Part shown: positions 25,254 through 35,456 of the stretch, piece after piece
Position numbering within the stretch: the first letter of the stretch is position 1
Layout: each line of letters begins with the position of its first letter
From: Polyangiaceae bacterium
GTDB lineage: Bacteria; Myxococcota_A; Polyangia; Polyangiales; Polyangiaceae
Assembly: GCA_020848455.1 (NCBI GenBank)
Contig: JADLAB010000564.1
Coordinates: forward strand, 1-35,728
Reading direction: 5' to 3'
DNA length: 35,728 nt
Notes under the pieces: model-generated
What the model was told of the DNA's origin: nothing
The model's input: the letters and a program-made list of their open reading frames with translations, nothing else
Databases searched by the model: none
Made by a program: the position numbers and the translations under genes

Positions 25254-26879
25254 ATGGGAATGGTGCATGGTGGGAGGCTGGTCTCGAAGGCGCTCGCGCG
25301 CCAGGGCGTGAAGCACCTGTTCACGCTGTGCGGCGGGCACATTCAGTCGATCTACGACGGTTGCCTCGACGACGGCATCGCCATCGTGGACACGCGCCAC
25401 GAGCAGACCGCCGGCCACGCGGCCGACGGCTACGCGCGCGTGACCGGGCGTCCCGGCGTGTGCGCCGTGACGGCGGGACCGGGCGTGACCGACGTGGTGA
25501 CGGCCGTCGCCAACGCGCAGCGCGCGAACGTGCCCATGGTGGTCATCGGCGGCGCCGGTCCGCGGGCGCTCGCCGACATGGGCTCGCTGCAGGACATGAA
25601 CCACCTCGAGCTGATGCGCTCCGTCACCAAGTGGAGCGTGTCGGTGCCTGCGACGGACCGGCTCGCCGAGTACGTCGACGCCGCGTTCCGGGTGGCGCAG
25701 GCGAACCTGCCGGGGCCGGTGTTCCTCGAGATGCCGCTCGACGTGCTGATGGGCTTCGCCGACGACGGCGCCGTCGCGACCGAGCCGCCTCCCGAGCCCG
25801 TGCGCCCCGCCGGCGGCGCGCGGGAGATCGAGCGCGCCGCCGCGCTCTGCGCCGCGGCCGAGCGGCCCGTGTTCATCGTCGGCAGCCAGCTGCGCTGGTC
25901 GCCGCAGAAGGAGGCGCTCCTCCGCTTCGCCGACGCCGTCGGGGCGCCCGTGTTCCTGAACGGCATGGCGCGGGGCGGGCTCCCGGTCGCTCACCCGGGC
26001 CTCATGAGCCGCGCGCGCAAGCACGCCCTCAAGCGCACCGACTGCTGCTTCGTGTTCGGCACGCCCTTCGACTTCCGGCTCAGCTACGGCCGGGCGGTCG
26101 CCGCCGGGGCCAAGGTGGTGCGCGTGGACCTCGACGCCACCGAGCTCGGGCGCAACCGCGCCGCCGATGTCGCCATCCACGGCGACACCGGGCTCGTGCT
26201 CGACCAGCTCCTCGCGATCCTCGGCAAGAAGGCCTGGCCCGCTTGGCTGGCGGAGCTGCGCGCGGTCGAGGACGCGTCGCGCGCGCAGATGGCGGCGGAG
26301 CTCGGCAGCGACGCGGACCCGCCCAACCCGCTGCGGGTGTGCGCCGAGCTCGACCGGCGCCTCCGCCCGAACGACATCGTCATCGGCGACGGCGGCGACT
26401 TCGTGGCGACGGCCGCCTACGTGCTCAAGCTCGAGTGGCCCCAGCTGTGGATGGACCCGGGCCCGCTCGGCACGCTGGGCGTCGGGCCCGGCTACGCCAT
26501 GGCGGCGCAGCTCGCGCGCCCGGAAGGCCGCGCGGTCCTCGTCTACGGCGACGGCAGCTTCGGCCTGCACGGGCTCGAGTTCGAGGCCATGGTGCGCCAG
26601 AACATCCCGGTCGTGGCGGTCATCGGCAACGACGCGGCCTGGACCCAGATCCGGCGGGGCCAGCTCGAGATCTACGGGGCGGCGCGCGCCCCGGCGACGT
26701 CGCTCGCCTACACGCGCTACGACCAGGTGGTCGAGGCCGTCGGCGGCTTCGGCGCCTGGGTCGAGCGGACGGCGGAGCTCGGGCCGGCGCTCGACGCCGC
26801 CTTCGCGAGCGGCCGGCCTGCGTGCGTCAACGTGAAGATCGCCGCGAGCGACTTCCGCAAGGGAGCCATGAGCGTCTGA
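25254..26879 (+). CDS. Thiamine-diphosphate enzyme, acetolactate synthase-like
   Basis: A 541-residue enzyme of the acetolactate synthase/2-hydroxyacyl-CoA lyase/oxalyl-CoA decarboxylase superfamily. The N-terminal pyrimidine-binding domain has the activating Glu50 in DTRHEQTAGHAADGYAR and the TAGPGVTD loop. The C-terminal pyrophosphate-binding domain has the motif GDGSFG (from 432), ending with GNDAAWTQI. The central domain has a Rossmann-like VFIVGSQL segment. It condenses or cleaves 2-oxo or 2-hydroxyacyl substrates. No small regulatory subunit gene is nearby, which argues against the biosynthetic IlvB role. MGMVHGGRLVSKALA is the expected N-terminus, supporting this ATG. The TGA at 26877 overlaps a 7-codon ORF leading to the next gene. 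Confidence 0.88.
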   Translation: MGMVHGGRLVSKALARQGVKHLFTLCGGHIQSIYDGCLDDGIAIVDTRHEQTAGHAADGYARVTGRPGVCAVTAGPGVTDVVTAVANAQRANVPMVVIGGAGPRALADMGSLQDMNHLELMRSVTKWSVSVPATDRLAEYVDAAFRVAQANLPGPVFLEMPLDVLMGFADDGAVATEPPPEPVRPAGGAREIERAAALCAAAERPVFIVGSQLRWSPQKEALLRFADAVGAPVFLNGMARGGLPVAHPGLMSRARKHALKRTDCCFVFGTPFDFRLSYGRAVAAGAKVVRVDLDATELGRNRAADVAIHGDTGLVLDQLLAILGKKAWPAWLAELRAVEDASRAQMAAELGSDADPPNPLRVCAELDRRLRPNDIVIGDGGDFVATAAYVLKLEWPQLWMDPGPLGTLGVGPGYAMAAQLARPEGRAVLVYGDGSFGLHGLEFEAMVRQNIPVVAVIGNDAAWTQIRRGQLEIYGAARAPATSLAYTRYDQVVEAVGGFGAWVERTAELGPALDAAFASGRPACVNVKIAASDFRKGAMSV

Positions 26880-26903: not shown

Positions 26904-27425
26904 GTGGAGCTGCGTTTCGTGGCACCGGAGCTGCGGCTCCTCGACGCGCTCGAGAGCGAGGTGCTCGCGTGCGCGGTGTGGAGCGACGAGCGGCCCGCCG
27001 AGGGCGTGGCCGGGCTCTGCGACTTCCGCCTCGCGGGCACGATCTCGCACCTGTTCCGGACGGGGTTCCTGTCGGGCGAGCGCGGTGAGGTGCTGCTCCT
27101 GCCCGGTCGGCCCAAGCTCGGCTTCGCGAAGGTGCTCCTGTTCGGCGCCGGCCCGCGGGCCAGCTTCGACGAGGGCGTGTTCCTCGAGGTGCTGCGCCGC
27201 ATGCTGCGCGCCATCGACGACCTCGCGGCGCGCATCGCGGTCGTCGAGCTGCCGGGGCGCACCGCCGATCTCGTCCCGGCCGAGCGCGCCGCCGACGCCC
27301 TGCTCGAGGCGGCGGGCCGCGGCCACGAGCACTCCGTCTGGACGCTGGTCGAGGACGCCGCCGCGCGCGCGCGCATCACGCAGCACACCATCGAGCAGCG
27401 TCGGCGCATCCGCCGCGCCCCGTGA
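26904..27425 (+). CDS. Stand-alone M17 leucyl aminopeptidase N-terminal-like (macro-fold) domain
   Basis: A 173-residue protein with a GTG start. It resembles the N-terminal domain of M17 leucyl aminopeptidases: ALESEVLACAVWSDERP, then AGTISHLFRTGFLSGERGEVLLL, then GFAKVLLFGAGPR, then a helix FLEVLRRMLRAIDDLA. The metal-binding catalytic domain of M17 is absent, so it is unlikely to be a peptidase. In the full-length family this domain helps in hexamer assembly and, in PepA, DNA binding. It follows the TPP enzyme gene after 24 nt and is presumably co-transcribed. Function is unknown. Confidence 0.7.
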   Translation: MELRFVAPELRLLDALESEVLACAVWSDERPAEGVAGLCDFRLAGTISHLFRTGFLSGERGEVLLLPGRPKLGFAKVLLFGAGPRASFDEGVFLEVLRRMLRAIDDLAARIAVVELPGRTADLVPAERAADALLEAAGRGHEHSVWTLVEDAAARARITQHTIEQRRRIRRAP

Positions 27426-27450: not shown

Positions 27451-28905
27451 CTACGAGGCGACCGAGCTGTGCACGAAGTGGGCTCGCACCTCGGGCTTGC
27501 TCCAGGCCTCGAGCACGGCGCGCACCGCGGCGTCGCCACGCCCGAGCGCCGCGAACAGCCAGTCCTGCAGCCCCTTGTGGAGCGCGCACGCGAAGCTCTC
27601 GCGCATGCGACCGAAGATGCTGCCCTGCAGCGCGTAGCTCTGCTCCGGCTCGACGCCGCAGTACGGCGCGTAGGGGCACGCCGCGCAGTCGGGCTGCGCC
27701 TCGCGGATGGAGGCGAACAGCAGCGCGCGCACGGTCTCGTGGGTCATGAGCTCGCGATAGCGCGTGACCGCGACGTCGCCGAGCTGGAAGAAATCGTCGC
27801 CGCGATCGCGCAGCCGGCGACCGGTGTCGCTCGTGTAGATGCGGCCGTCGCAGTCGTAGGCGAGCGTGCCGACGGCGCTGGCGGCGGGCGAGCGGATGGC
27901 GACCTCGCTCGGGGCCTCGCCGAGGAGGATCTGGCGCAGGAACAGCGCGGCGTGGCGCTCACGCGGGCCGGACCCCGCGAGGCCGAGCCCGAGGGCGCGC
28001 TCGAGCGCTGCCCGGTGAAAGTCGAGGTAACCGCCGCGCGGGTCGAGCCCCTCGGGCGGCGCGAGCGCGAAGCTCCGACAGCCGAGCGCCGCGAGCGCGT
28101 CGACCAGGGCTGCGCCCGAGGCCGCGCCGGCGACCCACGCGGTCGGCGGCGCCACGAGCTCCACCTCGACGTGGTAGAGCGCCGGATCGAGACCGAGCCC
28201 GCGGTAGCGCTCGTGCACGCGCGCGACGTCGCGGGCGAAGAGGGTGCGCGCCGCCTCGCGCTCGGCACCGCCGCCGGGCGCGAAGAGCGTCGCGTCGAGC
28301 CGCGCCACGATGCGCATGCGCCGCGCCACCACGAAATCGAGGTCGGCGTCCGCGATGCCCGCGAGCCCGGTCAGGAGCACGAGCTCGAGCGCCTTGCCGT
28401 AGGCGCGGTTCTTCTCGAGCGCGTGGTCGACGAGGTGTCGGACGACCGGCATGGCGGCGAGCGGCTCGCCGCCGGCCAGCGCGAGGGTGAGCTCGGGGCT
28501 CGTCGAGCGCAGCGCGAAGTCGACGACCTGCTCCGCGGTGCTCGCGGTCATGTCCGCCGGCGTCTCGCGCGCGGGCTCGCTCGCGGCGGGCGCGCCGCCG
28601 CGGCGCGTGACCACGACGAGGTGGTGGCTCGGCCCGTGCTCGACGAAGCGCCGCCGGCGCCAGAAGCCCGCGACTGCCTCGGCCAGGTCGAGCTCGCTCC
28701 GCACGAGACGGCGCGTGGCGAGCTTGTTCCAGAGCTCGCTGCCGCGCTCGAGCGCCCCCTGCCGCAGCGCGCCGAGCTCGGCCTCGGTCACGAACGCCCA
28801 GTCGCCGAAGGGGCTGGTGAGCAGGATCTCCTCGCCCACGCGCCGCTGGTTCACCGGCACGAGCTCGGCGGGGGCCACCGGTCGCCCGAGCTCACGGAGC
28901 CGCAT
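27451..28905 (-). CDS. hxsB: HxsB-like protein lacking radical SAM cysteines
   Basis: A 484-residue homologue, as I read it, of HxsB, one of the radical SAM maturases of the His-Xaa-Ser system. Family-like features are an N-terminal FGDWAFVTEAELGALRQG region, FVEHGPSHHLVVVT, then STSPELTLALAGGEPL (GGEP 145-148), AYDCDGRIYTSD, FFQLGDV, and the C-terminal cluster CAACPYAPYC (Cys407, 410, 416). The 4Fe-4S motif CX3CX2C expected after VVVT is gone; residues 101-110 read RRGGAPAASE with no Cys at all. The reading frame is intact through the region. It is probably a catalytically dead scaffold or peptide-binding subunit. A strong AGGAGG 5 nt before the ATG fixes the start. It overlaps the previous gene by 14 nt and is last in the operon. 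Confidence 0.8.
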   Translation of the reverse strand: MRLRELGRPVAPAELVPVNQRRVGEEILLTSPFGDWAFVTEAELGALRQGALERGSELWNKLATRRLVRSELDLAEAVAGFWRRRRFVEHGPSHHLVVVTRRGGAPAASEPARETPADMTASTAEQVVDFALRSTSPELTLALAGGEPLAAMPVVRHLVDHALEKNRAYGKALELVLLTGLAGIADADLDFVVARRMRIVARLDATLFAPGGGAEREAARTLFARDVARVHERYRGLGLDPALYHVEVELVAPPTAWVAGAASGAALVDALAALGCRSFALAPPEGLDPRGGYLDFHRAALERALGLGLAGSGPRERHAALFLRQILLGEAPSEVAIRSPAASAVGTLAYDCDGRIYTSDTGRRLRDRGDDFFQLGDVAVTRYRELMTHETVRALLFASIREAQPDCAACPYAPYCGVEPEQSYALQGSIFGRMRESFACALHKGLQDWLFAALGRGDAAVRAVLEAWSKPEVRAHFVHSSVAS

Positions 28906-29206
28906 CGCCGCCTCCTGCCGCGCCGCCCGCGGCGGCGCCGGCCGTGGCCGCCGCGCCCTCCGCGGCCGGGCCCGCGCCCGCGTCGCCGCGCAGCCGCCGC
29001 TCGATGGTCTTGCCGAGCGCGAAGTTGTCGAGCTCGCTCGCCACCGTCGCCTCGTCTACCTCGCCGCCCGCGGCGACCGTGACCCGCACGAGCCAGCGAC
29101 CGGGCAGCTGCTCCTGCGCGATCGTCGCGAAGTCCGCGAAGGTCTTCGCCGCCTCGTCCACGGCGAAGCCGTCATAGAGCTCGGCGTCGAAGCTGAGCTC
29201 GATCAC
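28892..29206 (-). CDS. Second HxsD-like small protein
   Basis: A 104-residue protein with a GTG start that overlaps the previous stop (GTGA). Its first 75 residues follow the same layout as the preceding HxsD-like protein: IELSFDAELYDGFAVDEAAKT, a helix with FADFATIAQE, a strand GRWLVRVTV, and SELDNFALGKTI, matching the EF-E-NELLGQ region of the neighbour. I therefore read it as a diverged paralogue. The last 25 residues are low-complexity Ala/Gly. HxsD-like proteins are small partners of the Hxs maturases; binding of the precursor or of the enzyme is plausible. The next gene begins inside its end. Confidence 0.6.
   Translation of the reverse strand: MIELSFDAELYDGFAVDEAAKTFADFATIAQEQLPGRWLVRVTVAAGGEVDEATVASELDNFALGKTIERRLRGDAGAGPAAEGAAATAGAAAGGAAGGGDAAP
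28911..28916 (-). promoter_or_regulatory. Strong ribosome binding site of the HxsB-like gene
   Basis: AGGAGG on the minus strand, 5 nt from the ATG at 28905. It lies within the coding end of the upstream gene and decides the start. Confidence 0.75.
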
Positions 29207-29718
29207 TTCTCGGCCTCCGGCGCGGGTGTGCTCCCGGGCTCGGCCGGCGCCTCGGCCGGCGCCTCGGCCGGCGCCTCGGCGGCGGCGGCGGCGGCCGGCT
29301 CGGCCGGCGCCTTCTTCTTGTACTTCTCCTCCCAGCTCATCGCGAGGCCGAGCGGATCCTCGAAGGCCGTGTCGGCGCCGATGTCCATGTCGAACAGCTC
29401 GTCGAGCCCCGGCGGACCCGCGGCGCCCGTGACGGCGCGCGAGGCGATCGCCTCGAAGAGCGCCCGGTGGTTCTGCGCGATCTGGACCCGCCAGGCCTGA
29501 CCGAGCAGCTCGTTCTCGAACTCGCCCGCAAAGGCCGCGCCGTCGGCGTCGGGCGCCTTCGGCCGCAGCCGCACGCGCAACCGCCCGGGCGCGGCCCGAT
29601 CGAGGTGCACGTAGCACCGGTCGATGAACACGTACGCCGCGCCGTACACGGCCTCGAGCGGGTACAGCCCCTCTTCGAGCTCGAGCTCCACCGTGCCTCC
29701 CGTCTGCGCCTCATCCAT
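29203..29718 (-). CDS. hxsD: HxsD-like protein with C-terminal extension
   Basis: A 171-residue protein whose first 100 residues match the HxsD pattern as I know it: VELELEEGLYPLEAVYGAAY, a strand IDRCYVHLD, RLRVRLRPKAP, and a FAGEFENELLGQAWRVQIAQ stretch followed by a helix. HxsD is a short protein always found with HxsB and HxsC. Here it carries an extra 70 residues: an acidic DELFDMDIGADTAFEDP, KYKKK, and an AEAP repeat tail. The tail is encoded by a 12-nt triplication (29239-29274). It is followed by a related shorter gene. The ATG at 29718 is 68 nt after the previous gene's stop. Confidence 0.72.
   Translation of the reverse strand: MDEAQTGGTVELELEEGLYPLEAVYGAAYVFIDRCYVHLDRAAPGRLRVRLRPKAPDADGAAFAGEFENELLGQAWRVQIAQNHRALFEAIASRAVTGAAGPPGLDELFDMDIGADTAFEDPLGLAMSWEEKYKKKAPAEPAAAAAAEAPAEAPAEAPAEPGSTPAPEAEK
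29239..29274 (-). repeat. 12-nt tandem repeat x3 in the HxsD-like tail
   Basis: The unit ctcggccggcgc occurs three times, encoding AEAP repeats at the C-terminus of the HxsD-like protein. Copy number could vary by slippage. Confidence 0.85.
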
Positions 29719-29786
29719 GACCACGCATCTTGCCCGAGCGCAGGCGTCGGTCAACCGTGAAGGCGCACGGTGGTGCGCGCGCGCGG

Positions 29787-30767
29787 TCAGCCGGCCGGGT
29801 CGGGCTCGCTCCGGATGCGCCGCACGATGCGCTCCTTCGACACGAAGACGGGCGCGAGCTCCGCGAGGTCGTACCAGGCGCCGAGCTCGAACAGCCCGCC
29901 GCAGATGGAGTCGAGGCTGCACTGGCGGCACACGTCCGCCTTGGCGTGGCGGAAGTCCGTCTGCCGCACCGTGCCCTTGTCGTCGAGGAAGTGCACGATG
30001 CGCTCCTCGGCCTTGACGATCTTGCGCGTCTCGGTGGACGCGTGCGCGTGCTCCGTCATGAAGCACAGCGGCACGCGCTCGGCCCGGAAGGACAGGCCGC
30101 GCTCGGTCAGCAGGCGCATCGCGCGCCCCAGCGACAGCTCGAAGTCGCGCAGCCGATGCGCGGTGTCGCGGTTCGTCTCCGCACGGCCCATCGAGGGGTC
30201 GAGGTTGTTCCACACGAAGTGGCGCACGATCGGGTGCCGCTCGGTGAAGTAGCGCACGTTCGCGTCGAGGTGGTCGGCGTTGAAGGCGTTGATCACGGTG
30301 TTGATGTTGACCGTGACGCCGAGCCCGCCCGCGGCGCGATCCTCGCGGTCCACCGTGGCCAGGTTGTCGAGGGCCTCCTCGGCGCGCGCAAAGCTGCCGC
30401 GCACGCCGGTGAGAAAGTCCTCGAGCTCGGCGCGGTGGCTGTGGATCGAGACGTGGTAGTGGCGCAGGCCCGCCGCGACGAAGGCCCGTGCCGTGTCGAG
30501 CTCCGCCACCTTGGTGCCGTTCGTGATCATGCGCGGGTGCAGATCGCGCGCCAGCGCGGCGCGCGTCACCTCGACGACGATCGGCGACAGCGAGGGCTCG
30601 CCCCCCGTGAGGATGACCCCGAAGTAGCCGCGGGCCCGGAAATCGTCGAGCTGGCGCGTCGCCGTCTCGAGGTCGAGCATGTACGGCGTCTCGGGGTTGG
30701 AGCAGAAGCGGCAGTACTGGTTGCAGTGCCGCACGAGCTGCATGTAGCCGAGGTTCGCCACGCCCAC
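29787..30767 (-). CDS. Radical SAM enzyme with C-terminal CX2CX5C, Hxs locus
   Basis: A 326-residue radical SAM protein. The 4Fe-4S site is intact (CNQYCRFC, Cys15, 19, 22) and the GGEP motif (55-58) binds S-adenosylmethionine. The remainder is a partial TIM barrel with HYHVSIHSHRAELEDF and VNINTVINAFNADH. The C-terminus has CRQCSLDSIC (Cys280, 283, 289), a spacing identical to that in the HxsB-like protein, suggesting an auxiliary cluster or a twitch-like fold. It is a likely maturase of the SHG-repeat precursor; whether it corresponds to HxsC is uncertain. Start: GTG at 30767 directly after an in-frame TAG, or ATG at 30743. Confidence 0.85.
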   Translation of the reverse strand: MGVANLGYMQLVRHCNQYCRFCSNPETPYMLDLETATRQLDDFRARGYFGVILTGGEPSLSPIVVEVTRAALARDLHPRMITNGTKVAELDTARAFVAAGLRHYHVSIHSHRAELEDFLTGVRGSFARAEEALDNLATVDREDRAAGGLGVTVNINTVINAFNADHLDANVRYFTERHPIVRHFVWNNLDPSMGRAETNRDTAHRLRDFELSLGRAMRLLTERGLSFRAERVPLCFMTEHAHASTETRKIVKAEERIVHFLDDKGTVRQTDFRHAKADVCRQCSLDSICGGLFELGAWYDLAELAPVFVSKERIVRRIRSEPDPAG

Positions 30768-30806
30768 CCAGTCTAGCCCGGGCGCGGGCCCGGTCGAGCG
30801 CCGCGC

Positions 30807-31727
30807 TCAGCCCTTCGGGGGCGGCGGCTTCTGCGCCTCCGCCTCGGCGTCGCCGAACAGCCCGGGGAAGATGCGGCGCAGCTCCTCGCCGCTGCGTCGT
30901 GCCGGGCCGCGCTCCTCGGCGCGCGCGGGCAGCGGCTTGGCGAGCGGCAGGCGCCGCGGCGCAGCGCCCGAGGCAGGCGTCTCGTGCGACCCGCCCGCGA
31001 GCTCGGCCGCGGCGGGCTCGACGATGCCGATGCCGGCGTGGGGCGCGCCTTCGCCCGGTGTGTGGGCGGCGTCGTAGAGCGGCAGGTCGAGCAGACGCGC
31101 CTCGTCGCGGGCCGCCTCGAGGTACGGCGCGACGATCTCTTCGTTCGGGATCACCCGGTCGGCCGCGGCGGCCGCGTGCCCGTGGCGCTCGGCGCGCGCC
31201 AGGTAGAGCGAGCGTGCGCCGAGGTGCCGCGCGAGCCGTACGAGCTCGGCGAGGTGGCGGAAGCTCGAGCGCGTCACCACGGTCGTGAGCGCGAAGGGCA
31301 CGCCGAGCGCGCGCGCGTGTCGCAGCCCCTGCACCGTCTGCGCGAAGCTGCCCGGCGTGCTCGTGTGGTAGTCGTGCATCGCGGCGCTCTGCCCCTGCAG
31401 GCTCACCTCGAGCCCGAGCGCCGGGCTCGCCGCGGCGAGGCTGCGCGCGTACGCGAGGTAGGCGAGCCGGCGCCCGTTCGTCTGGACGAGCAGAGGAGCG
31501 GCCCCGCGGCGCGCGGCCTCGGCTAGCCACCGAGGCAGGGCCTCGTGCAGCGTGGGCTCGCCGCCCACGAAGGCGGCGGGCTCGTCCGCGCGGAGCGCCT
31601 CGAGCGCCGCCTCGACGCGAGCGGCGAGAGCGTCGGCCGGATCGTCCCCGGCCCGTGCCCCGAGCGACCCCTGCGCGCAGAACACGCAGCGGTTGTTGCA
31701 GACGAAGCCTAGCTCGATGCGCTGCAC
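30807..31727 (-). CDS. Radical SAM enzyme without auxiliary cluster, Hxs locus
   Basis: A 306-residue radical SAM protein with a GTG start. The catalytic cluster motif CNNRCVFC lies at residues 10-17 (Cys10, 14, 17), with GGEP at 55-58 and then LLVQTNGRRL. These are the only three cysteines, so no auxiliary 4Fe-4S cluster can form, unlike its neighbour. The C-terminal third, beyond residue 200, is Ala/Glu/Pro-rich and has little fold information. It is predicted to use S-adenosylmethionine radical chemistry on the repeat peptide, or to act with the neighbouring radical SAM protein. No clear Shine-Dalgarno precedes the GTG. It is 78 nt downstream of the precursor gene, with a hairpin between. 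Confidence 0.85.
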   Translation of the reverse strand: MQRIELGFVCNNRCVFCAQGSLGARAGDDPADALAARVEAALEALRADEPAAFVGGEPTLHEALPRWLAEAARRGAAPLLVQTNGRRLAYLAYARSLAAASPALGLEVSLQGQSAAMHDYHTSTPGSFAQTVQGLRHARALGVPFALTTVVTRSSFRHLAELVRLARHLGARSLYLARAERHGHAAAAADRVIPNEEIVAPYLEAARDEARLLDLPLYDAAHTPGEGAPHAGIGIVEPAAAELAGGSHETPASGAAPRRLPLAKPLPARAEERGPARRSGEELRRIFPGLFGDAEAEAQKPPPPKG

Positions 31728-31754
31728 GGAGGGGCTCGGCGGAGGCGGGGCGCA

Positions 31755-31777
31755 CGCGCGCGGCGGTCGGGCGCGCG
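31755..31777 (-). terminator. Hairpin between the precursor and maturase genes
   Basis: The inverted repeat cgcgcgc-9 nt-gcgcgcg lies between the precursor stop (31806) and the first radical SAM start (31727). It lacks a T tract. Such hairpins often reduce read-through so the precursor is made in excess over enzymes. Confidence 0.35.
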
Positions 31778-31805
31778 GTCGCCGCGGCCGGCGAGTGCGC
31801 CGCTG

Positions 31806-32078
31806 CTACCAGCTGCCGTGCGAGCCGTGGCTGCCGTGCGAGCCGTGGCTGCCATGCGAGCCGTGGCTGCCGTGCGAGCCGTGGCTGCCGTGCGAGCCGT
31901 GGCTGCCGTGCGAGCCGTGCGAGCAGTGCTGCGCAGGAATGACCCCGCCACCGTCGGGCGAGACGTCGCCGTGCTCGGCGTTGTCGAGGGCCTTCTTGCT
32001 CATCGCGCCTTCGGTGCGCGACAGCATGCCACCGGCGCTGCGCTTGAAAGAGGGAAGCTTCTTGTTCTCCGCCGACAT
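31806..32078 (-). CDS. hxsA: HxsA-like His-Gly-Ser repeat precursor peptide
   Basis: A 90-residue predicted RiPP precursor. Residues 1-51 are a charged leader with no signal peptide (MSAENKKLPSFKRSAGG...), including PDGGGVIP and then Gln-His. Cys52 follows, then twelve perfect Ser-His-Gly triplets and a terminal Ser-Trp. Read in the other register, this gives His-Gly-Ser repeats, the His-Xaa-Ser signature of HxsA. Each His or Ser could be a radical SAM modification site. Translation is favoured by GGAGGAG 6 nt before the ATG, the best ribosome site in the window. The tail DNA alternates AGC and TCG serine codons, giving an 18-bp period. Radical SAM and HxsD-like genes follow on the same strand. 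Confidence 0.88.
   Translation of the reverse strand: MSAENKKLPSFKRSAGGMLSRTEGAMSKKALDNAEHGDVSPDGGGVIPAQHCSHGSHGSHGSHGSHGSHGSHGSHGSHGSHGSHGSHGSW
31815..31922 (-). repeat. Tandem repeat encoding 12 SHG triplets
   Basis: 108 nt of 9-nt units, mostly arranged as 18-bp pairs with alternating serine codons (AGC/TCG). One His codon is CAT instead of CAC. It is a coding repeat, not a CRISPR: there are no spacers. Confidence 0.92.
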
Positions 32079-32084
32079 CGTCTG

Positions 32085-32091
32085 CTCCTCC
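32085..32091 (-). promoter_or_regulatory. Strong ribosome binding site of the precursor gene
   Basis: GGAGGAG on the minus strand, 6 nt from the ATG at 32078, near-ideal spacing and sequence. Confidence 0.75.
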
Positions 32092-32103
32092 GCAATGCGC
32101 CGT

Positions 32104-32730
32104 TCAGGCGAGGCTCGGCCGCCGGCCGTTCGGATCCACGTCGGCGGGCCAGTCGTCGCCGAGCAGTCGCTCGCGGTGCGCGTTCAGGCGCTCCGCCTGG
32201 CTCAGGAAGCCGCGTCGGTCGACGTGCTCCTCGTTGGCCGCGACGACCTCGGCGAGCGCCATCGCGCCGAGCCCCTGGTCCTCGTCCGTGGGCGTCGCGC
32301 CGTCGCCGCGGTTCTTCACGAGCACGACGAAGTGACGCGTCATGCCCGGTGCGCGCTGCGGCAGCGCGCCATCGCGCCGCATCACCTCGAGGGTGAAGGA
32401 GCCCGCGGGTCCGTCGAGCTCGACCTCGAGCGCGCCGCGCTCGAAGGGGCCGACGCGCCGCACGCTCCACGGTCCGAGCGCGCCGCCCGCCGCGAGCGGA
32501 GCCACGGCCCGTGCGGCATCCTGGGCGCGGGCGGCGGTGCCCGGCGCGTCCGCGACCCGCGGATGCGAGGACGCGGACGTGCTCGCCGCCACGATGCTGC
32601 CCGTGGCTGCCACCGTCGCAAGACTCGCCGACACCATGACGCTGCGCCTCGTGAGGCTCGCGCCGAGGCGGGGTGCAGCACCGTCGGCCTCTGGTGCTTC
32701 CGAAGAAAAGCGCCTTCGCGTTCGTGCCAT
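32104..32730 (-). CDS. Tat-signal protein, first gene of the Hxs-like operon
   Basis: A 208-residue protein with a twin-arginine-like signal: SLTRRSVMVSASLATV (Arg28-Arg29, hydrophobic 31-48) and a likely cleavage after ASTSASS. The mature region is compact: GPWSVRRVGPFERGALEVEL, SFTLEVMRRDG and HFVVLVKNRGDG are strands. A C-terminal helical region HVDRRGFLSQAERLNAHRERLL follows. I recognise no family. GGGAGAA lies 8 nt before the ATG. It is separated from the precursor gene by 25 nt, so it is in the same operon and may be the exported partner or carrier of the modified peptide. Tat export suggests it folds, or binds a cofactor, before crossing the membrane. Confidence 0.65.
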   Translation of the reverse strand: MARTRRRFSSEAPEADGAAPRLGASLTRRSVMVSASLATVAATGSIVAASTSASSHPRVADAPGTAARAQDAARAVAPLAAGGALGPWSVRRVGPFERGALEVELDGPAGSFTLEVMRRDGALPQRAPGMTRHFVVLVKNRGDGATPTDEDQGLGAMALAEVVAANEEHVDRRGFLSQAERLNAHRERLLGDDWPADVDPNGRRPSLA

Positions 32731-33011
32731 CGTCAACGTTCTCCCGAGCTCGGTGGGCCGCCGCGGCCACCACCGCCCTTCCGACCATGGTATCACGGTG
32801 TGCGGCGCGCGCGCGCGAAACGCGCATCGCCCTTCGCTGGGATCCTGCGCGCCCGCTCGCGCCCGCATGACGCGGGGAGTCAAAACGGAGGCGCGCGCGC
32901 CCGGCGCACGGTTCCGCCCGCAAAGCGTTTGACCAGAGGCCCCGCACACTGAGATTCTACTGAGGGGCTCGTGTGCGAGCGGCGCCACGGCACGAACGTG
33001 TGAGGAAGTAC
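32731..33011. other. 281-nt divergent intergenic region
   Basis: Holds the 5' regions of the Hxs-like operon (leftward) and the MopE-type gene (rightward). The rightward gene has a good promoter candidate. For the leftward operon only a weak GATACC-type element about 55 nt upstream of the start codon was seen. No protein-like ORF. Confidence 0.5.
32929..32958 (+). promoter_or_regulatory. Candidate promoter TTGACC-18-GATTCT of the MopE-type gene
   Basis: TTGACC at 32929-32934 and GATTCT at 32953-32958, spaced 18 nt. The start codon at 33012 is 53 nt further, leaving a normal leader with GAGGAAG just before the ATG. Confidence 0.45.
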
Positions 33012-35456
33012 ATGCGGCAGCGCGACGACACCGGTAAGCGGGCAACGGGCGCGGCGGTTGCGTCGAGCCGGCGCTCGGTCGTTGCCTGGTGGGGCGTGGG
33101 CGGCGCGTTCGCGCTCGCCGCCGCGCTCGGCGGCGCGGCGTGCGCCTCGTCGACCGACACCGACGGCGGAGGGACCGGTGCGACGGGCAACACCACCGGC
33201 ACCGGGCTCACGGGCGGTGCCGGCGGCGCCGGTGGCAGCGTGGGCGGCGGCGGTCAGGGTGGTGGCCCGTGCGTGCCCCTGTCCGAAGAGCTCTGCGACG
33301 GCGAGGACAACACCTGCGACGACGTCGTCGATGAGGGCTGCGCGTGCATCCAGGGCCAGACCCAGCCCTGCTACAGCGGCGACCCTGCGCTTCCCGGCGT
33401 GGGCGAGTGCGCCACGGGCCTGCAGGCCTGCGACATCCACGGCGAGTACACCGGCCCGTGCGTGGGCGAAGTCCTGCCCGAGGCCGAGACCTGCGACGGC
33501 GCCGACAACGACTGCAACCACGCCGTCGACGAGGGGCTGGGCACCGTGAGCTGCGGCCTCGGCGCCTGTCAGGTGACGGTGGAGGCCTGCACCAACGGGC
33601 AGCCGGTGCCGTGCGTGCCCGGCAATCCGGGCCCGGTCGAGACGTGCGACGGGAGCGACGACAACTGCAACGGCGTCGTGGACGAGGGCTGCAACTGCGT
33701 GAACGGCACGACGCAGCCCTGTTACACGGGCGCGCCGGCGACGCGCGGCGTCGGCGAATGCAAGGACGGCCTGCAGACCTGCGTGCTCGGGGCGTGGTCC
33801 GCGTGTGCCAACGACGTGCTGCCGACCGGCGAGATCTGCGACGGCAAGGACAACGACTGCGACAACGCCAACGACAACGGCGACCCGGGCGGCAACCAGA
33901 GCTGCAGCACCGGTGGCGTCGGCCAGTGCGCGCTCGGCCTCACCCACTGCCAGAGCGGCCAGATCGCCTGCGTGCAGCAGTACCAGCCCGAGGCCGAGGT
34001 CTTCGACTGCAAGGACAACGACTGCAACGGCGACACCGACGAAGGGCAGCTCACGGGGTGCAACACCGGGCTGCTCGGGGTGTGCGCCATCGGCACCAAG
34101 GTCTGTATCCAGGGCCAGGTCGTGTGCGTGCAGAACGTGCAGCCCTCCGCGGACGTCTGCGACGGGCAGGACAACAACTGCGACGGCGCCACCGACGAGG
34201 GCGACCCCGGCGGCGGCGCGGTCTGCGCGACCGGTCAGCCCGGCGTGTGCAGCCCCGGCGTGCGGCACTGCGTGAGCGGCGTGCTGACGTGCGTGGCGAA
34301 CGCGCAGCCCTCGGCCGAGGTGTGCGACGGGCTCGACAACAACTGCGCGGGCGGCGTCGACGAGGGCAACCCCGGCGGCGGCGCCGGCTGCAGCACGGGC
34401 CAGCAAGGCGTGTGCGCCGCGGGCACCGTCACCTGTCAGAGCGGCGCGCTCACCTGCGTGCGCAACGTCGCGCCCTCGTCGGAGACCTGCGACGGGCTCG
34501 ACAACAACTGCGCGGGCGGCGTCGACGAGGGCAATCCCGGCGGCGGGGTCGCCTGCACGACCGGCCTGCTCGGCGTCTGCAACCAGGGCACGACCGCCTG
34601 CCAGAACGGCGCGCTCACCTGCCCGCAGAACGTGCAGCCCTCGAGCGAGGTGTGTGATGGCGCCGACAACAACTGCAACGGCGCGACGGACGAGAACGAC
34701 CCCGGCGGCAACGTGGCGTGCTCGACGGGCCTGCCGGGCGTGTGCAGCGCGGGCATTCGGCACTGCGTGAGCGGCGCGCTCGTGTGTCAGCAGAGCGTGC
34801 AGCCCTCGGGCGAGGTGTGCGACGGGCTCGACAACAACTGCGCCGGTGGGGTCGACGAGGGCAACCCCGGCGGCGGGGCAGCCTGCGCCACCGGTCAGTC
34901 GGGCGTGTGCAGCCCCGGCACCCAGACCTGCGTCGCGGGAAGCGTGAGCTGCGTCCGCAACGTCAACCCGTCGACGGAGACCTGCAACTCCCTCGACGAC
35001 GACTGCAACGGCCTCGTCGACGACGCGCTCGTGGCCGACGGCAAGCCCAACACCTGCGCGAACGCCGCGAGCCTCACGTACACGATCGCCCCCGCGGGCC
35101 AGACGCTCGTGACGGGCGTCGTGGACGCGAGCGGCGAGGACTGGTTCAGGGTGACGTTCACCTCGGTGGGCTCGCCGGGGCAGAGCTACCACCCGGTCAT
35201 CGACCTCATCGCGGGCAATGCGGAGTACCGGATCCGCGTCTACCGCTCGTGTCCGCCCGCGGCCTCCGAGTGCAGCCAGGACATCGAGACGTTCTCGATG
35301 GACTACCCAGCCAACCAGCAGGGCTGCCTGTCGCCGACCAATCACTGCACGGATCAGACGACGCCGCGCAACGCGACGTGGCTCGTGCGGGTGTTCCGCC
35401 GGGTCCCGTCGCCCACGAACTGCACTTCGTACACGGTGCGGTTGAGCAACATCTAG
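33012..35456 (+). CDS. MopE-type lipoprotein with 11 metal-binding-like repeats
   Basis: An 814-residue secreted protein. Signal FALAAALGGAAC (Cys44) is followed by a Thr/Gly linker. Then come eleven copies of a motif of the form C-D-G-x-D-N-N-C-x-G-x-x-D-E-G, known from MopE and many myxobacterial proteins as a putative metal-binding motif. They are interleaved with Cys-rich segments containing GVC-x-x-G. In the fifth copy the first Cys is displaced (EVFDCKDNDC). The last copy is diverged (CNSLDDDC). Residues about 680-814 form a separate beta-rich domain (EDWFRVTF, RIRVYRSCPP, NATWLVRVFRR). It probably binds divalent metal at the cell surface. GAGGAAG 4 nt before the ATG supports this start over the upstream GTG. 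Confidence 0.85.
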   Translation: MRQRDDTGKRATGAAVASSRRSVVAWWGVGGAFALAAALGGAACASSTDTDGGGTGATGNTTGTGLTGGAGGAGGSVGGGGQGGGPCVPLSEELCDGEDNTCDDVVDEGCACIQGQTQPCYSGDPALPGVGECATGLQACDIHGEYTGPCVGEVLPEAETCDGADNDCNHAVDEGLGTVSCGLGACQVTVEACTNGQPVPCVPGNPGPVETCDGSDDNCNGVVDEGCNCVNGTTQPCYTGAPATRGVGECKDGLQTCVLGAWSACANDVLPTGEICDGKDNDCDNANDNGDPGGNQSCSTGGVGQCALGLTHCQSGQIACVQQYQPEAEVFDCKDNDCNGDTDEGQLTGCNTGLLGVCAIGTKVCIQGQVVCVQNVQPSADVCDGQDNNCDGATDEGDPGGGAVCATGQPGVCSPGVRHCVSGVLTCVANAQPSAEVCDGLDNNCAGGVDEGNPGGGAGCSTGQQGVCAAGTVTCQSGALTCVRNVAPSSETCDGLDNNCAGGVDEGNPGGGVACTTGLLGVCNQGTTACQNGALTCPQNVQPSSEVCDGADNNCNGATDENDPGGNVACSTGLPGVCSAGIRHCVSGALVCQQSVQPSGEVCDGLDNNCAGGVDEGNPGGGAACATGQSGVCSPGTQTCVAGSVSCVRNVNPSTETCNSLDDDCNGLVDDALVADGKPNTCANAASLTYTIAPAGQTLVTGVVDASGEDWFRVTFTSVGSPGQSYHPVIDLIAGNAEYRIRVYRSCPPAASECSQDIETFSMDYPANQQGCLSPTNHCTDQTTPRNATWLVRVFRRVPSPTNCTSYTVRLSNI

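Follow-up and report, generated by a model that had tools for sequence, protein, structure and literature searches.

The window considered here is the whole of a 35,728-nucleotide stretch of DNA from a Polyangiaceae bacterium (GCA_020848455.1, contig JADLAB010000564.1). Positions 27451-32730 of its minus strand contain a peptide-modification operon of the His-Xaa-Ser (Hxs) type, in which the homologue of the radical S-adenosylmethionine (rSAM) protein HxsB lacks its catalytic cysteines. Seven intact, tightly packed open reading frames (ORFs) are transcribed from the gene of a twin-arginine translocation (Tat) signal protein towards hxsB, in the order Tat, HxsA4, rSAM1, rSAM2, HxsD, HxsD-like and HxsB, with a MopE-type gene divergent from them. 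The hxsD and hxsD-like genes overlap by 4 bp and the hxsD-like and hxsB genes by 14 bp; the remaining intergenic gaps are 25-78 bp. The first-pass annotation had described seven packed minus-strand genes, a precursor with 12 SHG repeats and two rSAM proteins with an intact CX3CX2C motif, and each part of this description holds. A second metagenome-assembled genome (MAG) of the same genus (G001; L084/L104) shows synteny over the operon and its neighbours. In the comparison of the window with G001, dN/dS comes to 0.09 for rSAM2, 0.14 for the precursor, 0.22 for HxsD, 0.28 for the Tat-signal protein, 0.29 for rSAM1 and 0.31 for HxsD-like, so that the operon genes other than hxsB are under clear purifying selection. 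In the following, G000 denotes the window's own genome and G031 a genome of a related genus.

The identity of the operon as a His-Xaa-Ser system is borne out by NCBIfam profile matches far above chance, with E-values of 4e-28 for HxsA4, 1e-68 for HxsB, 5e-13 for HxsD and 2e-15 for HxsD-like, and of 3e-32 (rSAM1) and 5e-21 (rSAM2) for HxsC4/HxsC. The precursor (31806-32078, minus strand, 90 aa) passes the HxsA4 family NF038313 with 98.3 bits against a curated cut-off of 55, over positions 1-93 of the 93-position model. It comprises a leader, a conserved AQHC boundary, exactly 12 SHG triplets and a C-terminal SW, and carries no export signal of its own. Among the 24 distinct precursors compared, most contain a leader of the type LPSFxRxxxGMLSxxE, followed by AQHCS, the SHG repeats and a terminal S/Q-W. 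The repeat region opens with H-C/A-S-H and closes with Trp; the QHC start and the Trp end are almost invariant, while the number of SHG repeats ranges from 7 to 52, the longest seen being that of a Myxococcaceae MAG (L156:15169-15900). Two precursors (L066 and L178) are without the Cys at the start of the repeat. The Ser and His codons of the repeat are a synonymous mix, yet SHG is spelled almost without exception; therefore the peptide sequence, and not a DNA repeat, is what is kept.

Two further SHG-bearing loci were recorded. A second SHG-rich frame of 90 aa lies on contig C567 of the window's own genome (L086:2441-2710; HASHGSDASHGSD...) and scores 57.8 bits to HxsA4. Its match covers the repeat alone, with no leader, so that it is probably not a precursor; it may be another repeat gene read in the wrong frame. 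A complete HxsA4 system is present on CAMAWH010000012.1 (L183), which is labelled Klebsiella pneumoniae. Its leader type is that of the uncultured MAGs L175, L177, L184 and L185, and the label is almost certainly wrong.

The last gene of the operon (27451-28905, minus strand) encodes a 484-aa protein, earlier proposed to be an inactive HxsB. It is a full-length homologue, scoring 232 bits to TIGR03978 over model positions 2-465 of 466, under the curated cut-off of 370; the G031 orthologue scores 442 bits. In an alignment of 53 HxsB sequences, the rSAM motif CX3CX2C is replaced in only three, those of the window, G001 and G031, and is intact in the other 50. The segment TLRCNETCVYC has become TRRGGAP..AAS in the window, TRRGPGPSA..AAPE in G001 and TPRSNETNVHG in G031, and the first cysteine of the window protein, referred to as pseudo-HxsB, does not occur before residue 276. 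Judged from its sequence, HxsB is catalytically dead in this genus and in G031, which bears out the proposed inactivity and restricts it to these two lineages. The pseudo-HxsB retains a GGEP motif and four SPASM cysteines (C407, C410, C416 and C440), as in the active sister clade. This sister clade is itself without C341, C359 and C419, which are found in other HxsBs; as it was already short of three SPASM cysteines, the loss of cysteines looks stepwise. The three cysteine-less proteins form one clade (support 92/91 and 91/93), although the window branch is very long, and the loss was probably a single event; two independent losses were considered and are disfavoured by this grouping.

The divergence of the window protein is uneven along its length. 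Its N-terminal domain and SPASM part keep about 0.85 of the identity normal among active HxsBs and its barrel 0.55-0.76, the most diverged parts being the Cys loop (0.39) and the rear barrel (0.55). The change in the G031 protein lies mainly in the Cys loop, and 0.94-0.99 of normal identity is kept outside this loop and the tail. The frame is open at full length in all three genomes and hxsB has a dN/dS of 0.32 between the window and G001. The cysteine-less HxsB is thus a kept protein under purifying selection, not a pseudogene. The closest protein by sequence among solved structures is 5wgg, the sactionine-forming enzyme CteB (PMC7876137).

Both rSAM proteins match PF04055 (58 bits for rSAM1 and 68 bits for rSAM2, against 29.5), and CX3CX2C reads CNNRCVFC in rSAM1 (30807-31727, minus strand) and CNQYCRFC in rSAM2 (29787-30761, minus strand, with an alternative start at 30767). 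The homologues of rSAM2 begin at the equivalent of position 30761. The rSAM1 protein is related to HxsC/HxsC4 and remains under the curated cut-offs of both, with 112 bits against 500 for HxsC4 (NF038332) and 79 against 267.9 for HxsC (TIGR03977). It belongs to its own clade apart from HxsC4 and has no C-terminal auxiliary-cluster cysteines. The best NCBIfam match of rSAM2, which contains a C-terminal CX2CX5C, is HxsC (75 bits against 267.9), and it scores 61 bits against 500 for HxsC4; its family forms a clade of its own (SH-like approximate likelihood ratio test, SH-aLRT, 98) and has no NCBIfam equivalog. The search of the operon against Hxs profiles that had been proposed earlier gave a divided answer: the precursor and the HxsD-like protein pass, and neither rSAM protein passes the HxsC or HxsC4 cut-off. 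Pairs of rSAM1 and rSAM2 also occur in Elusimicrobia and related MAGs (L106, L109, L110, L112 and L116), with no HxsB, HxsD or SHG precursor in range; the pair may therefore have another or a remote substrate.

The two small proteins had been taken to be of HxsD type, and their profile scores agree. HxsD (29203-29718, minus strand, 171 aa) scores 49.3 bits to TIGR03976 against a cut-off of 50, its G031 orthologue reaching 53.7, and consists of a core domain and a tail, DPLGLAMSWEEKY, conserved in the alignment as DPLGIAxSWEEKY. The HxsD-like protein (28892-29206, minus strand, 104 aa) passes NF038315 with 56.7 bits against a cut-off of 41. The predicted structure of HxsD is of high confidence from about residue 10 to residue 95, and the solved folds nearest to this model are those of Rpb11/RpoL and Pcc1 subunits (Foldseek E 0.0065, probability 1.00; Z about 7). 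As these are small, dimer-forming proteins, the predicted resemblance is faintly suggestive of an HxsD/HxsD-like pair. A PqqD-like winged-helix recognition element of the kind found with ribosomally synthesized and post-translationally modified peptides (RiPPs) is not suggested by the predicted fold, which matches Rpb11/Pcc1-type subunits with no PqqD among the matches listed, but may nonetheless be present. A second HxsD homologue within one locus of G018 (L099:6101-6565) suggests further duplication of HxsD.

The first gene of the operon (32104-32730, minus strand) encodes a 208-aa protein with a twin-arginine signal (..LTRRSVMV..) and one folded alpha/beta domain of an unnamed family. The RR of the signal is invariant in 24/24 homologues, and TIGR01409 matches five members of the family. 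The mature domain has no relative in Pfam, NCBIfam or the PDB. It is modelled as an alpha/beta fold, much of it with a predicted local distance difference test score (pLDDT) above 90, and a fold search with it gave no clear match (best Z 4.8 / E 0.33). A MelC1-like copper chaperone was rejected as an identity for this protein, as the weak PDB match lay on the signal region and was gone with the mature domain alone. A version of the domain with a lipoprotein signal is encoded in G031 beside the intact HxsB (L082:10262-10744); the partner domain can therefore also be exported by another route.

The distribution of these genes was surveyed in 145 relatives, mostly of one family (f1), and in 351 genomes sampled evenly across the phylum. 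Of the 145 relatives, 61 contain HxsA4, and the system is patchily distributed among the 48 genera of one family. The rSAM2 family occurs in 59 relatives (58 shared with HxsA4 genomes) and the Tat domain family (alignment A5) in 58, while HxsD-like occurs in 57, every one an HxsA4 genome. HxsB is found in 57 of the 61 HxsA4 genomes, and HxsC4, at 380 bits or at least that score, in 49 relatives, all of them HxsA4 genomes; no clear HxsC4 was found in G000 and G001, where the best score is 128 bits. The exceptions include G045 and G084, whose HxsA4 matches are under the family cut-off. In the phylum sample, 110 genomes contain HxsA4, 95 the Tat family and 84 both. The Tat protein had been regarded as an addition to the operon; it is instead a near-constant partner of HxsA4, present in 57 of the 61 HxsA4 genomes among the relatives. 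The HxsA4 system contains the Tat family and rSAM2 almost constantly, even where their genes are unlinked; with the precursor, HxsD, HxsD-like and the HxsB homologue, these two form a set conserved in Myxococcota.

Gene-neighbourhood comparison, called for at the outset, found the arrangement conserved in relatives. In G031 and G033, a single operon contains, in order, Tat, rSAM1, rSAM2, the MopE-type gene, HxsD, HxsB and HxsA4. Unlinked maturases are common in HxsA4 systems. The Tat gene adjoins hxsA4 on the same strand, with no maturases nearby, in G016, G017, G024 and G062 (Tat first) and in G107 and G112 (hxsA4 first).

The divergent gene of the window (32973-35456, plus strand) encodes an 827-aa cysteine-rich MopE-type protein with a lipoprotein-like N-terminus, a probable associated partner of the system. 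It matches PF11617 with 143 bits in seven stretches, and its C-terminal domain is common to several other Hxs-linked MopE-type proteins. MopE-type genes lie within the operon or next to it in G031, G033, G085, G056, G015, G024 and others, in G024 after the Tat/hxsA4 pair. They occur at 12/26 Tat loci against 4/85 other loci (p=2.5e-6); the MopE-type lipoprotein thus tends to accompany the Tat gene. The PF11617 motifs are shared with MopE of Methylococcus (PMC3423442), although the short motif alone is in common and copper binding by the window protein is putative. On the other side of the operon, the plus strand encodes an acetolactate-synthase-like enzyme dependent on thiamine pyrophosphate (25254-26879), also present in G001, and a 173-aa protein consisting of the Peptidase_M17 N-terminal domain alone, without the catalytic domain (26904-27425), syntenic in G001.

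The system type is already named in the family library as the NCBIfam HxsA4, HxsC4 and HxsD-like set (NF038313, NF038332 and NF038315), and is widespread in Myxococcota. Like that set, the operon has a precursor and an HxsD-like protein over their curated cut-offs and the same co-occurring genes. Unlike it, no window protein exceeds the HxsC4 cut-off, the window HxsB is dead by sequence, and the Tat-signal family and rSAM2 belong to no named family. The first-pass annotation had proposed an expanded variant with a different stoichiometry; this is not upheld, HxsA4 with HxsD and HxsD-like being already named and the normal set in Myxococcota. The classical HxsABCD systems (TIGR03976-TIGR03979) were reportedly described by Haft and Basu. 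They have in common with the window homologous HxsB, HxsC-related rSAM proteins, HxsD and a His/Ser repeat peptide, whereas the HxsA4-type system differs in its SHG rather than HxS repeats, two HxsD versions, often unlinked modules and a Tat partner. The work of Haft and Basu is cited in PMC9062424. In the open-access literature searched, Hxs systems are mentioned in passing only, the HxsA4/HxsC4 type not at all, and no product is reported. The Tat family and rSAM2 as near-constant components are new, and so are the pseudo-HxsB and the association with MopE-type genes.

The best explanation, given a probability of about 0.5, would be an HxsA4-type RiPP-like system with cytosolic rSAM modification, a pseudo-HxsB scaffold and hitch-hiker export by Tat. 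A complex of HxsD, HxsD-like and pseudo-HxsB would hold the HxsA4 leader, pseudo-HxsB being now a substrate-binding scaffold and no longer a catalyst. The SHG repeats would be modified in the cytosol by rSAM1 and rSAM2, possibly assisted in trans by an intact HxsB/HxsC-like pair on contig C498. The modified, compact and signal-less HxsA4 would then cross the Tat translocase folded, carried by the adjacent Tat-signal protein, and the product would reach the periplasm or surface beside the MopE-type lipoprotein. Its many imidazoles would most plausibly bind metal, a guess made because of the imidazole density and the MopE-type neighbour, and the least certain step.

Precedents exist for the separate steps. 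In the maturation of quinohemoprotein amine dehydrogenase by QhpC/QhpD (PMC7876137), an rSAM/SPASM enzyme acts in the cytoplasm on a small polypeptide with a leader, which it cross-links, and this subunit is then exported to join other proteins. That system differs in its export by an ATP-binding cassette (ABC) transporter, its one rSAM enzyme, and the lack of a repeat and of a Tat partner, and the comparison is one of how the systems work only. Tat hitch-hiking export of signal-less partners is known from PaoABC (PMC4273604), and copper binding by a modified His peptide from another RiPP class (PMC10206099). A fuller version, in which a maturase turned non-catalytic scaffold serves a radical-modified, His-rich product that is exported on a dedicated Tat carrier and forms a surface metal-binding polymer with the MopE-type lipoprotein, is unlikely to hold in its entirety.

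Several points weigh against the scaffold and hitch-hiker explanation. The window pseudo-HxsB is fast-evolving, with a branch of about 2 substitutions per site, and relaxed constraint is possible. No Tat homologue is detectable in 26/110 HxsA4 genomes of the phylum sample; either Tat export may not be universal or the profile may miss divergent homologues. Shared ancestry inflates the co-occurrence counts and their p-values (1e-34 and smaller), and the HxsD fold match (Foldseek E=0.0065) is weak. MopE-type genes are common: the 9.2 Mb of the window's own genome hold 55 matches to the motif, which at a very rough estimate stand for 30 genes. With that number a neighbour by chance is unlikely, yet the family lacks specificity. 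As the genome has no clear HxsC4, any choice of enzymes acting in trans is guesswork.

The alternative that survives best is a division of labour, in which the catalytic HxsB step is carried out in trans by the C498 pair and pseudo-HxsB is a regulatory or stabilising partner. All three genomes with a cysteine-less HxsB hold another, intact HxsB, and these copies form one clade (99/97). In G000 and G001 the intact copy is paired with an intact HxsC-like rSAM protein on another contig (C498 in G000), with no precursor or HxsD beside it, and the common unlinking of maturases is in keeping with action in trans. Other genomes, however, carry two HxsB copies without any cysteine loss, so that the C498 paralogue may serve another substrate; this alternative is possible, at somewhat lower odds than a scaffold.

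It is more doubtful that the Tat-signal protein is itself the final client, or else a periplasmic factor of its own, with HxsA4 finished inside the cell or exported otherwise and met or processed by the Tat protein outside. The lack of a fold or family assignment for the Tat domain, the absence of a detectable homologue from about a quarter of HxsA4 genomes and the lipoprotein-signal version in L082 are consistent with such a role, whereas the occurrence of Tat and hxsA4 as direct neighbours in maturase-free units speaks for a protein that physically partners the peptide itself. Improbable, in turn, is an unmodified SHG repeat acting as a plain His-rich metal-binding tail, with the rSAM chemistry acting only on the C-terminal Trp or on the conserved Cys where the repeat begins. 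The near-invariance of these two ends beside a variable repeat number would fit this, but two precursors are without the Cys. By the family definitions, every Hxs precursor named so far is, to our knowledge, a repeat peptide linked to a pair of rSAM proteins, which also speaks against it. Decay of hxsB as a dying gene, in an operon on its way out in this genus, agrees with the lost motif, the diverged Cys loop and rear barrel and the long branch, and is very improbable given the intact frame and dN/dS of hxsB, its well-kept N-terminal domain and SPASM part, the mainly local change in G031 and the constraint on the other operon genes.

For the HxsA4 systems of Myxococcota, two handles on the pathway are gained. 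One is a dedicated gene beside the precursor that encodes an exported partner; the other is a second rSAM family, whose distribution over the genomes follows that of the precursor with few exceptions. With these, the pathway can be tested by reconstituting the set. In an operon that is otherwise conserved, the cysteine-less HxsB offers a natural experiment on whether HxsB is needed for catalysis or to hold the substrate.

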